Part shown: positions 13,738 through 52,053 of the stretch, one piece after another
Layout: the number at the start of each line of letters is the position of its first letter
Position numbering within the stretch: position 1 is the first letter of the stretch
NCBI GenBank assembly: GCA_022071945.1
Contig: JAJVIN010000050.1
Coordinates: forward strand, 1 to 64,000
DNA from: Thermoanaerobaculia bacterium
GTDB taxonomy: Bacteria > Acidobacteriota > Thermoanaerobaculia > UBA5066
Direction: 5' to 3'
Length of the DNA: 64,000 bases
Translations under genes and position numbers: made by a program
The notes under the pieces: model-generated
Seen by the model: only the letters and a program-made list of their open reading frames with translations
Told to the model about the DNA's origin: nothing
Database searches by the model: none

Positions 13738-18345
<4,608 letters not shown>

Positions 18346-18347
18346 CG

Positions 18348-19835
18348 ATGGGTAAACCGACCGGATTCCTCGAGTTTCATCGCGAGCTCCCGGCCAACCG
18401 GACACCGTCCGAGCGCGTCAGCGACTGGGAGGAGATCCACGTCCACGTTCCGACCGATACGCTGAAGCGCCAGGGCGCGCGCTGCATGGACTGCGGCACC
18501 CCCTACTGCCACACGGGCAAGCTCATTGGCGGCATGGCCTCCGGCTGCCCCATCAACAACCTCATCCCTGACTGGAACGACCTGATCTTCCGCGGACAGT
18601 GGAAAGAGGCGGCGGTTCGCCTTCACCAGACCAACAACTTCCCGGAGTTCACGGGCCGCGTCTGTCCCGCCCCGTGCGAGGGGTCGTGCACGCTCGGCCT
18701 CAATGACGATCCCGTCACGATCAAGTCGATCGAGTGTTCGATTGCCGATCACGCCTTCGAGGAAGGCTGGATCGTGCCGGATACGCCGGGAACGAGGACC
18801 GGCAAGCGGGTCGCGGTCGTGGGGTCCGGGCCCGCCGGCCTTGCCGCCGCCTCCCAGTTGAACCACGCGGGGCACACGGTGACCGTGTTCGAGCGCGCGG
18901 ACAGGGTGGGCGGACTTCTGATGTACGGCATCCCGAACATGAAGCTCCCCAAGTCGATGGTGGAGCGCCGCGTCCGGTTGATGGCCAACGCGGGGATCCG
19001 CTTCGTCACGGGCGTCGAGGTGGGGCGCGACATCACCGCCAAGAGCCTCCTGTCGGACTGGGACGCCGTCGTCCTGTGCTGCGGCGCCGCACAGGCTCGC
19101 GACCTGGCCATCGAGGGGCGAAACCTCTCGGGGATTCACCTCGCGATGGAGTTCCTCCACGCCAATACCAAGAGCCTGCTCGATTCGTCGCTGGCGGATG
19201 GTGCCTATATCAGCGCATCGGGCAAGAGCGTGGTCGTCATCGGCGGGGGCGACACGGGCACGGACTGCGTCGGAACGGCCCTCAGACACCGCGCGAGGAA
19301 CGTGACCCAGCTCGAGATCCTCCCCAAGCCGCCCGCCAGCCGGGCTCCCGACAATCCGTGGCCCCAGTGGCCCAAGGTCTACAAGCTCGACTACGGCCAG
19401 GAAGAGGCCGCTGCCCTGCAGGGAGCCGATCCGCGCGCCTACTCCATCCAGACGAAGCGATTCGTGGGGGACGAGAGTGGCCAGGTCCGTGAGGTCCACA
19501 CGATCGACATCGAGTGGAAGAAGAGCCCGGACGGCCGGATGCACATCGTCGAGCTCCCCGGCACGGAGCGCGTCTTTCCGGCCGAGCTCGTCCTTCTCGC
19601 TCTCGGGTTCGTCGGACCCGAGAAGAAGGGGCTCGTCCACGAGCTCGGGCTGAAGCTCGACGAGCGCGGCAACGTCGTGACCGATGGCGAGAAGATGACG
19701 AGCGTTGCCGGAGTCTTTGCCGCCGGAGACATGGTTCGCGGCCAGTCGCTCGTGGTCTGGGCGATCCACGAGGGGCGAAAGGCCGCTCGCGGAGTCGACC
19801 GCTACTTGATGTACGGTCAGAGCTACCTGCCATGA
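18348..19835 (+). CDS. gltD: Glutamate synthase small (beta) subunit
   Basis: A 495-residue FAD/NADPH subunit that passes electrons from NADPH to GltB. The N-terminal Cys clusters ([30 protein letters not shown]) hold the 4Fe-4S centres. The FAD site is [15 protein letters not shown], the NADPH site is [14 protein letters not shown], and a second flavin motif [14 protein letters not shown] lies near the C-terminus. ATG 18348 is chosen; a TTG at 18342 would overlap the gltB stop and is the alternative. The stop overlaps the ATG of a response regulator gene (ATGA), indicating translational coupling. Confidence 0.96.
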
Positions 19836-46434: not shown

Positions 46435-46599
46435 ACGACTGCCGGTTTCTCCGCGACGACCCTCGCGAGCACGGTCGAGAGCATGTCGATGTGCTCTCTC
46501 TCCTCGGCATCGAGTTCCCGGTAGAGCTTCCACTCCGTCGAGCCCGCCGGGAACACCCGCCCGGCGTCGAGGAAGAAGCCGCGCGCCCGCTACTCGAGG
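46435..46599 (-). pseudogene. Remnant: decayed copy of the 3' end of the Nfn-ferritin fusion gene
   Basis: This 165-bp stretch aligns without gaps to 49076-49240, the last codons and stop of the Nfn-ferritin fusion, with 11 mismatches by my count (about 93% identity). On the minus strand it would encode RARGFFLDAG, a region near STEWKLYREL, DAEEREHIDM and the end AEKPAVV, then its own stop (TGA rather than TAG). A TAG replaces the Lys codon just before RARGFF, and similarity ends abruptly at 46599. It is a dead partial copy lying on the far side of the serine hydrolase gene. The rest of 46260-46693 contains no gene I can support. Confidence 0.85.
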
Positions 46600-46693
46600 A
46601 GATCTGGTGACTCTCGCCTTTCTGCGGATCACGACGGGGGCGGACATCCTGCGCCAGCCCCTGGCCCCGGACGCGACCCTCAGCCCTACGCCG

Positions 46694-49071: not shown

Positions 49072-52053
49072 CTAGACGACCGCCGGTTTCTCCGCGACGA
49101 CCCGGGCGAGCACGGTCGACAGCATGTCGATGTGCTCTCTCTCCTCGGCCTCGAGTTCCCGGTAGAGCTTCCACTCCGTCGAGCCCGTGGGGAACTGCCG
49201 CCCGGCGTCGAGGAAGAAGCCGCGGGCCCGCTTCTCGAGGTGAACGGCGAGCCGCAGGAGGGCCGCGCCGGTCATCTCCTTCATCTCGGCTCCGGCGAAG
49301 ATGGCGACCTGAGTGGGCGAGAGATCCGGGTTGACCGCCGCGCCCGGCGCCTCGATGTGGTACCGGCTCGCGAGCGTCACCATGTGTCCCTTCTCCATCT
49401 CGGAGAGTTCGCGGAACAGGTGCGCGAGGTCGGGGTCCTCCGCCTCGATCTCCTTGGCGCCGCGCGCATAGAACGAGACGCCTCCCAGTTCGATCTCGAA
49501 CGCGTGCCGGATGGCCTCGATGGCGGCCTCGCTCTCGATCTTCGTGTCGTGTCCCGCGGCGAGCTTGCCCCCGCAGGCCGGGCAGAGCCCGTACGGGAAG
49601 GCGAAGCCCTCGGAGACCTTCAGGCACGACTCGCACGTCCAGACGAGCTTCTCCCCGGCGCAGCAGATGTGGTCCTCGTCACCCGCCTCGAAGGGACGGT
49701 GGCACTTGCCGCAGGCCGCCACCGTGGGAACCGGTGCGGCGCTCTTGGGGGTCTCTTCTTCCTCCAGGACGACGGGCCACTCCTTCGTCGTGAGGTACTT
49801 CTCGATGGCCCTCGCCGCGCGCCGTCCCGCTCCGAGCGCGAGGATGACTGTCGCTCCGCCCGTGACGATGTCCCCGCCGGCGAAGACGCCGGGGATCGAC
49901 GCCGCCTGTGTCTTCGGGTCGACGTTGATGTAGCCCTCGCCGCGAACCGAGAGATTCGGTGTCGTGCGGGAGATGACGGGGTTGGCGCGGGTCCCGAGCG
50001 CGTAGATCACGGTCTCGCACTCGAATGTCTCGAACTCGTCCGTCGGGACGGGCCGGCGCCTTCCGGACTTGTCCGGCTCGCCGAGCTTCATCTTCTGGAC
50101 GACGATGGCCTTCACGTTCCCCTTCTCGTCGACCTTGATCTCCGTCGGACCGACGAGCCAGTGGAAGTGGATCCCCTCTTCCTTGGCATGGCGGAGTTCC
50201 TCCACACGGCAGGGCGCCTCGGCCTCGGTCCGGCGGTAGAGGCAGTGAACCTCCTCGGCGCCGAGACGTCGCGCGACGCGGAGGCAGTCCATCGCCGTGT
50301 TGCCCGCTCCGAGGACGACGACCCTCTTGCCCATCGCGACCGGAGTGTCCTCGAAGGGGAACCGGTCACCCCCCATCAGGTTGATGCGGGTGAGGAACTC
50401 GTTGGCGCTGTAGACCTGGCCCGCCTGTTCACCCGGGATTCCGAGGAACATCGGGAAGCCCGCTCCCGTGCCGATGAAGACCGCGTCGTATCCCATCTCC
50501 TTCATCAGCTGTTCGATCGTGAAGGTCTTGCCGATCACCTTGTTCGTCTCGAACTTCACCCCGAGCTTCTGGAGGGCATTGACCTCTCGGTCGATCGTCG
50601 TCCGGGGGAGACGGAAGGACGGGATGCCATAGCGCAGGACGCCTCCGATGACGTGGAGCGCCTCGTAGATCGTCACGTCCGCGCCCTTGCGGGCCAGGTC
50701 ACCCGCGCAGGCAAGTCCCGAGGGTCCGGAACCGACGATCGCCACCTTGCCGAGCGTACCAGCGTTCTCAGGCGGGTGGACCTCGGGCAGGGGAGCGCTG
50801 TCGCCCACGAAGCGCTCGAGGCGCCCGATGGCGACCGGCTCCATCTTCTTCTCGAGGATGCACTGAATCTCGCACTGCGACTCTTGGGGACAGACGCGCC
50901 CGCAGACGGATGGGAAGAGGTTGCTTTCCTGGATGACCGAGAGCGCCCCGGAGAGATCTCTCACGAGGAGGTGCCTGATGAACCTCGGGATGTCAATGGC
51001 CACGGGGCATCCCGCGATGCACGTCGGCCGGGCGCACTGTATGCAGCGCTCGGCCTCGACGAGGGCGTCGGCCATCGTGTAGCCGAGGTTGACCTCCTCG
51101 AAATTCCTCGAGCGCTCCTTGGCGTCGCGCTCGGGCATCTTCATCGCGTGCTCGGGCAGCTCCTTGAACTTCTTGTAGTTCCGCTTGTTCAGCTCGAAGA
51201 GCTGCTCTTCGATCGAGCAGACCTTGTTGAAGTCGTCCTTTGCCGTCGTTTCCTGGCTCTTGAAGCGCTCCTGCCGGAGCTGGAGTTCGGGAAAGTCGAC
51301 CAGGTGGCCGTCGAAGTCGGGGCCGTCGACGCAGGCGAACTTCGTCTGCCCGCCCACCGTCACGCGGCAGGAGCCGCACATACCGGTCCCGTCCACCATG
51401 ATGGCGTTGAGCGAGACCATGGTCTTCACGCCGAACGGACGCGAGACCTCCGAGCAGGCGCGCATCATCGGCAGGGGACCGATGGCGACGACGAGGTCTG
51501 GCTTCTCCTTCTCGAGGAGTTCCTTCAGGGCGAGGGTGACGAAGCCGGGCTTTCCGTAGGTCCCGTCGTCCGTGCAGACAATCAGGTCGTCGCAGTACCT
51601 CTTGAAGCGGTCCTCCCAGAAGACGAGGTCCTTCGACCGGAAGCCGATGATGCCGGTCGTCCGGTTTCCGGCCTCCTTGAAGGCGCGAAGCTGAGGGAAG
51701 ACTGGGGCGACCCCCAGGCCTCCGCCCACCAGGACGACATGGCCGATCTTGCCGACATGGCTTTCGAGGCCGAGGGGGCCGACGAAGTCGGAGAAGGAGT
51801 CCCCCTCCTTGAAGTCCCGCATCATCTCCCGCGTCGTCTTTCCGAGGGCCTGGACGACGATCGTGACCGTACCCCAATCCCGGTCGTAGTCCGCCACGGT
51901 CAAGGGGATCCGCTCGCCGCCCTCGCGCAACCGGACCATGACGAAGTGTCCGGGCAGGGCGGCCTTGGCAACGTCCGGTGCATGGACGTCCCAGAGAAAG
52001 GTGACGTCGGAGAACTGCTCGCGCTTGACGATCTGATACACGTTTTCCCCCAA
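49072..52053 (-). CDS. NfnA-NfnB fusion with zinc ribbon and ferritin-like C-terminus
   Basis: A 993-residue cytoplasmic protein. Residues 1-275 match the FNR-like NfnA/SudB subunit, with 2Fe-2S ligands D221, C226, C229 and C241. Residues ~280-755 match NfnB/GltD: 4Fe-4S Cys motifs (CIQCARPTCIAGCP; CGRVCPQESQCEIQC), FAD site IVGSGPSGLACAG, NADPH site VLGAGNTAMDC and GVFAGGDIVTGG. Residues 781-827 contain C-x2-C pairs (781/784, 807/810, 824/827). Residues ~840-993 form a rubrerythrin-like helical bundle with E887-x2-H890 and E971-x2-H974. Nfn enzymes perform flavin-based electron bifurcation between NADH, ferredoxin and NADP; here a diiron peroxidase-like partner is fused on. Confidence 0.9.
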   Translation of the reverse strand: MGENVYQIVKREQFSDVTFLWDVHAPDVAKAALPGHFVMVRLREGGERIPLTVADYDRDWGTVTIVVQALGKTTREMMRDFKEGDSFSDFVGPLGLESHVGKIGHVVLVGGGLGVAPVFPQLRAFKEAGNRTTGIIGFRSKDLVFWEDRFKRYCDDLIVCTDDGTYGKPGFVTLALKELLEKEKPDLVVAIGPLPMMRACSEVSRPFGVKTMVSLNAIMVDGTGMCGSCRVTVGGQTKFACVDGPDFDGHLVDFPELQLRQERFKSQETTAKDDFNKVCSIEEQLFELNKRNYKKFKELPEHAMKMPERDAKERSRNFEEVNLGYTMADALVEAERCIQCARPTCIAGCPVAIDIPRFIRHLLVRDLSGALSVIQESNLFPSVCGRVCPQESQCEIQCILEKKMEPVAIGRLERFVGDSAPLPEVHPPENAGTLGKVAIVGSGPSGLACAGDLARKGADVTIYEALHVIGGVLRYGIPSFRLPRTTIDREVNALQKLGVKFETNKVIGKTFTIEQLMKEMGYDAVFIGTGAGFPMFLGIPGEQAGQVYSANEFLTRINLMGGDRFPFEDTPVAMGKRVVVLGAGNTAMDCLRVARRLGAEEVHCLYRRTEAEAPCRVEELRHAKEEGIHFHWLVGPTEIKVDEKGNVKAIVVQKMKLGEPDKSGRRRPVPTDEFETFECETVIYALGTRANPVISRTTPNLSVRGEGYINVDPKTQAASIPGVFAGGDIVTGGATVILALGAGRRAARAIEKYLTTKEWPVVLEEEETPKSAAPVPTVAACGKCHRPFEAGDEDHICCAGEKLVWTCESCLKVSEGFAFPYGLCPACGGKLAAGHDTKIESEAAIEAIRHAFEIELGGVSFYARGAKEIEAEDPDLAHLFRELSEMEKGHMVTLASRYHIEAPGAAVNPDLSPTQVAIFAGAEMKEMTGAALLRLAVHLEKRARGFFLDAGRQFPTGSTEWKLYRELEAEEREHIDMLSTVLARVVAEKPAVV

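Follow-up and report, generated by a model that had tools for sequence, protein, structure and literature searches.

The window analysed here, a stretch of 64,000 nucleotides from a Thermoanaerobaculia bacterium, carries on its minus strand one uninterrupted frame (49072–52053 in its long reading from a TTG at 52053). A GTG at 52041 is better supported by the sequence as the start than this TTG: six relatives share the position, with GTG, ATG or TTG there and a purine-rich Shine-Dalgarno-like stretch ahead of each, and the protein is therefore best read as 989 residues. Along the chain, NfnA is followed by NfnB, a flexible linker, an eight-cysteine double ribbon and a ferritin-like four-helix bundle (Table 1).

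Table 1. Features of the Nfn-ferritin gene, in window coordinates.
Feature	Coordinates	Strand	Basis
Complete gene	49072..52041	minus	989 aa + stop, GTG start; single open frame
GGGGGA, Shine-Dalgarno-like, ahead of GTG start	52046..52051	minus	sequence; comparable purine-rich stretch in relatives
NfnA-like domain, aa 1-275	51217..52041	minus	ERxPxT flavin motif, NAD-binding fold, DGTGMCGSC...C [2Fe-2S] site; motifs invariant in 41 homologues
[2Fe-2S] ligands D217, C222, C225, C237	51331..51393	minus	invariant 41/41
NfnB/GltD-like domain, aa 300-755	49777..51144	minus	two [4Fe-4S] motifs, FAD and NADPH Rossmann folds; Fer4_20, Pyr_redox_2
Both [4Fe-4S] ligand motifs, RCx2Cx4Cx3CPV and GRVCPQExQCx3C	50860..51045	minus	first 41/41, second 40/41
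Variable linker, aa 756-776	49714..49776	minus	length 17-43 residues across homologues
Eight-cysteine double ribbon, aa 777-825	49567..49713	minus	C777, C780, C793, C794 and C803, C806, C820, C823
Ferritin-like four-helix domain	49096..49536	minus	putative diiron ligands E851, E883, H886, E936, E967, H970

Searched as a whole, the protein matches the Pfam models DHODB_Fe-S_bind, Fer4_20, Pyr_redox_2 and, in part, Rubrerythrin, in this order. The closest solved structures are both Nfn subunits of Thermotoga and Pyrococcus: the NfnA-like domain aligns to the Pyrococcus NfnI beta subunit (5jca_S) and to Thermotoga NfnA (4ylf_A), and the NfnB-like domain matches 4ylf_B with E=1.1e-147. The single frame, the Pfam order and these structural matches bear out an earlier note on this DNA, which had read NfnA and NfnB as one chain. 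Fused Nfn (“pattern B”) had already been described (PMC6405883).

The motifs for the a-FAD, [2Fe-2S] and [4Fe-4S] sites of bifurcating Nfn have been defined previously (PMC6405883). Across 41 homologues, ERxPxT, the [2Fe-2S] motif DGTGMCGxCRx10CV with its Asp ligand, and RCx2Cx4Cx3CPV are invariant, while GRVCPQExQCx3C is kept in all but one (L053). In that homologue (L053/L042, genome G230) an in-frame gap of ~43 codons deletes the second [4Fe-4S] motif, through either a real loss or an assembly collapse in that MAG. Bifurcation is not universal among Nfn homologues (PMC9973337); judged by its motifs, assignment of this part to Nfn is well supported, as a putative ferredoxin/NAD(P)H bifurcase. 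In the homologue alignment, the linker that follows has a column identity of 40% versus 70–84% in the domains, and its mean pLDDT is 33–44 in a full-length AlphaFold2 model; it is predicted to be disordered. The same model places the tail relative to the Nfn part without confidence (pTM 0.51), and these two values make an interdomain electron path unreadable from it.

The CxxC pairs noted earlier behind NfnB form a set of eight cysteines that is invariant in 41 fused proteins. Profile matches of this ribbon (pattern CxxC...CPxCGG) in the PDB include HypA zinc ribbons (E=0.007) and the rubredoxin domain of rubrerythrin (E=0.03), so that its sequence appears to resemble HypA as much as rubredoxin. 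A zinc ribbon could not carry electrons, which weakens the case for electron passage through this element.

Searched alone, the last 240 residues match Rubrerythrin above the Pfam gathering score (E=1.9e-07). Structure prediction, proposed earlier as a check on the C-terminal bundle, returned for the module alone a four-helix ferritin fold (AlphaFold2, pLDDT 85.8), which compares with ferritins and COG1633 proteins at a VIA-align Z of ~14 over ~137 residues. The two ExxH motifs that had been pointed out in the bundle are E883xxH886 and E967xxH970, and the helix glutamates E851 and E936 complete the putative diiron set. All six residues are invariant in the 41 fused proteins and in 59 modules, and together with the eight cysteines they are kept in split homologues down to ~30% identity. 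This E, ExxH, E, ExxH pattern is that of the bacterioferritin/COG1633 type, and the predicted 4Glu+2His site resembles those of ferritin, bacterioferritin and COG1633 proteins. Rubrerythrins typically have an ExxE on helix C, with an extra Glu ligand three residues past the helix-C ligand. That position is A939 here, an alanine in 41 of 41 fused proteins and 59 of 59 modules. The description “like rubrerythrin” is thus right only in part; membership of the classical rubrerythrins was rejected on the missing ExxE and its invariant alanine.

The complete layout is already on record among annotators. Residues 5–991 of 993 (long reading) match positions 1–1004 of 1006 of the NCBIfam model NF009413 with 1638 bits. 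This lies below the curated equivalog cut-off of 1895 bits, Rhodopseudomonas members scoring ~2130, and on this score the protein is a divergent relative with the same architecture and no certified NF009413 equivalog. The earlier statement that no enzyme of this layout had been described does not stand: NF009413/PRK12775 models it end to end, and one member, AadN, has published genetics (PMC9973337). Literature searches on PRK12775, on Nfn with rubrerythrin and on such fusions found no description of the tail and no biochemistry of any family member.

Scanning genomes with the tail as the seed gave 80 loci of 196 confirmed relatives. The survey for the same fusion that the earlier note had called for succeeded: 43 of the 80 loci hold the full-length fusion, in hosts that include Acidobacteriota, Anaeromyxobacter and other Myxococcales, Rhodopseudomonas, Telmatospirillum, Thiocystis and others (Myxococcota and Proteobacteria among them). 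Apart from a few cut contigs, most of the remainder are split: a fused Nfn gene (~780–860 aa) precedes a ribbon-ferritin gene of its own (~213 aa). This split arrangement occurs chiefly in Burkholderiales, and in distant Acidobacteriota as well. Nfn is fused to the module or directly upstream of it in every assessable locus of the 80, two loci stopping at a contig edge. Fused and split forms interleave in a tree of the Nfn part, implying that fusion or fission occurred more than once, within the limits of a midpoint root and some weak nodes. Overall the module is rare, being present in 2 of 398 genomes sampled from the phylum of Rhodopseudomonas. Although split versions do occur in other lineages, a sequencing or assembly error that joined separate genes has practically no chance of being the explanation, refuted as it is by the full-length fusion in 43 independent cases, among them the complete chromosome of Anaeromyxobacter oryzae and genomes of the genus Rhodopseudomonas, and by an NCBIfam model of equal length.

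The neighbours of these genes recur. A nifJ/PFOR gene is found at 24 loci, nearly always together with a DHOD-like gene, and the order in Betaproteobacteria is Nfn, ribbon-ferritin, nifJ (PFOR), DHOD-like and often ferredoxin. The family neighbours 4-hydroxybenzoyl-CoA reductase genes in both Rhodopseudomonas and Rhodoferax; in the Rhodoferax-like genomes these genes precede split versions. Two Rhodoferax-like loci (L097:4893-7019 and L105:5995-8121) have the ribbon-ferritin module fused to an AMP-binding, acyl-CoA ligase-like enzyme, adjoining Nfn and 4-hydroxybenzoyl-CoA reductase genes. Defluviicoccus, with split genes, carries nifV and nifW upstream; nifV-like genes lie likewise in two Rhodospirillales genomes, and a FixC-like flavoprotein gene is downstream in two of these three (split Nfn and ferritin beside nifV-type genes at L121, L090 and L118; nifW at L121; FixC-like at L121 and L090). 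Downstream of the Thiocystis violacea gene (L086:8100-10848) lie genes similar to those for an electron-transfer flavoprotein alpha subunit and for an acyl-CoA dehydrogenase. On gene content, the theme common to the loci is low-potential ferredoxin, predicted to be made or used by the neighbours.

The genome of the window also encodes a separate two-gene Nfn, three COX1-family oxidases and two other rubrerythrin-family matches. Its PFOR and DHOD-like genes, the same pair that follows the Nfn-ferritin genes in Betaproteobacteria, lie at L186:3835-8452 (G000:C15), away from the Nfn-ferritin gene. Within the window, 18342–19835 encodes another GltD/NfnB-like protein (Fer4_20 and Pyr_redox_2). A direct repeat of 168 nt, 93% identical, occupies 46435–46602 and 49076–49243; the former duplicates the 3′ end of the Nfn-ferritin gene, with one in-frame stop, and the repeats flank a serine hydrolase gene of the Beta-lactamase family (PF00144, 46694–48805), as if this gene had been inserted with, or had caused, a partial duplication. 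Among Acidobacteriota, a COX1-family match occurs in 14 of 14 genomes with the module (one weak) versus 21 of 30 with Nfn only, a weak association (Fisher p=0.02; p=0.08 by family) in a test that ignores relatedness; it fits, and does not prove, an oxygen-protection role of the tail.

Rhodopseudomonas palustris needs AadN (RPA0678), published in 2023, to grow anaerobically on benzoate and 4-hydroxybenzoate, and an AadN variant rescued nitrogen fixation; the paper handles it as a pattern B Nfn and its text does not mention the ferritin tail (PMC9973337). In a Rhodopseudomonas-genus genome (G801), a trifunctional gene (L175:14281-17388) follows hbaA, hbaBCD, boxC and boxB, and its product has the same full architecture with ~63% identity to the window protein. 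From this neighbourhood, its position and a Cys38 in the long ORF reading, we infer strongly that it is AadN. If so, the published work concerns the three-part protein, and R. palustris is a tractable organism for the question of the tail.

Residue 38 of the long Rhodopseudomonas ORF is encoded by TGT, which one T to G change turns into Trp, and lies four codons ahead of the Met (codon 42) to which the starts of all homologues align. In close relatives the upstream length apparently differs by a non-multiple of three bases, and in a homologue from Xanthobacteraceae a strong Shine-Dalgarno sequence immediately precedes the conserved Met. The mutation published as the C38W suppressor may hence lie in the 5′ leader and alter expression, not the protein. 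Calculated anti-Shine-Dalgarno pairing of the Rhodopseudomonas leader gave no difference in duplex energy between the Cys38 and Trp38 alleles.

Taken together, we put at about even odds (probability roughly 0.5) a reading of the protein as an Nfn-type ferredoxin/NAD(P)H bifurcase whose tethered diiron module probably clears O2 or peroxide in the vicinity of oxygen-sensitive, ferredoxin-dependent enzymes. The invariant cofactor motifs and the genetics of a relative suggest the core reaction, in which electrons would be exchanged among NADPH, NAD+ and ferredoxin through flavin-based bifurcation or confurcation; the R. palustris relative is thought to feed low-potential ferredoxin to benzoyl-CoA reductase. 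For the tail, we infer that the putative 4Glu+2His site would reduce O2 or H2O2 with electrons that the ribbon would relay from the Nfn chain or ferredoxin. In bacteria that also use oxygen for respiration, this would shield the O2-sensitive clusters of Nfn and its partner enzymes. There is a precedent in a hydrogenase-rubrerythrin chimera that reduces H2O2 (PMC11926857). We count the Nfn motifs, the AadN phenotype, the linkage to Nfn, the ferredoxin neighbours, the invariant ligands and the COX1 association in favour of a protective tail, and the lack of published biochemistry, A939, a ribbon as close to HypA as to rubredoxin, the low pTM and the weakness of the oxidase association against it.

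The tail might instead be a sensor or regulator, in which zinc ribbons and an iron- or O2-responsive ferritin-like domain switch Nfn off or change its partner and no peroxide is turned over. Tethering by a variable linker and the zinc-protein-like ribbon scores would suit such a role, as would the second-best relatives of the ferritin part, frames of ~330–400 aa that look like MbfA iron exporters, MbfA being a ferritin-like domain appended to another protein. We regard this as possible but doubtful, as the complete, invariant 4Glu+2His site is typical of catalytic diiron proteins and the split form is an independent protein that regulation in cis would not need. Iron oxidation or storage by the module, or reduction by the Nfn part of ferric iron bound there, would accord with the structural likeness to bacterioferritin and ferritin. 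It is unlikely given the constant linkage of the module to Nfn, in many cases next to low-potential ferredoxin systems, and given that the neighbours identified in the loci read included no conspicuous genes for iron transport or storage.

Slightly less credible still is a diiron oxygenase, with Nfn as reductase and a tail that, like BoxB, would carry out hydroxylation or epoxidation of a substrate, a role that fits the legacy name “polyprenylphenol hydroxylase” and a Rhodopseudomonas gene placed directly after boxC and boxB. The neighbours elsewhere are nif or PFOR genes and not oxygenase substrate pathways, and “hydroxylase” is a legacy name that refers to the FNR-like portion of the model. 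Moreover, the phenotype published for AadN is an anaerobic one (PMC9973337). Finally, we think it very improbable that the diiron module serves the bifurcase as an internal electron sink of high potential, with the tail using one electron of each pair to reduce O2 or H2O2 and thereby driving the other to ferredoxin. Were this true, trace oxygen would, within one polypeptide, power the supply of reduced low-potential ferredoxin to nitrogenase, benzoyl-CoA reductase or enzymes related to these.

On the preferred reading of a protective diiron module, a functional tail would give a bifurcating enzyme its own protection against oxygen or peroxide, which would bear on the operation of nitrogenase and benzoyl-CoA reductase in hosts exposed to oxygen. 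The hosts of the family have genes for oxygen respiration, and the loci adjoin oxygen-sensitive PFOR, nif and anaerobic aromatic degradation systems.

Among known systems, NF009413/PRK12775 (“trifunctional 2-polyprenylphenol hydroxylase/glutamate synthase subunit beta/ferritin domain-containing protein”) matches the window protein in length and domain order; the protein nevertheless scores under its cut-off, and the model name is a legacy label for an inferred function. AadN, known by genetics only, differs in its hba-box neighbourhood. NfnAB/NfnI of Thermotoga maritima and Pyrococcus furiosus (4ylf, 5jca) share both subunits and all cofactor motifs, but are two chains and lack the ribbon and ferritin module. 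The pattern B Nfn of Clostridium autoethanogenum has the same NfnA-NfnB order in one chain (PMC6405883) and stops after NfnB, where the window protein continues. COG1633 ferritin-like proteins (PDB 2fzf, 2oh3), bacterioferritin and MbfA come closest to the tail in both sequence and fold, yet have neither the eight-cysteine ribbons nor Nfn. The [FeFe] hydrogenase-rubrerythrin chimera CperHydR follows the same plan of a redox input enzyme, rubredoxin-like centres and a diiron site (PMC11926857), although its input is a hydrogenase with no sequence kinship to the Nfn part.
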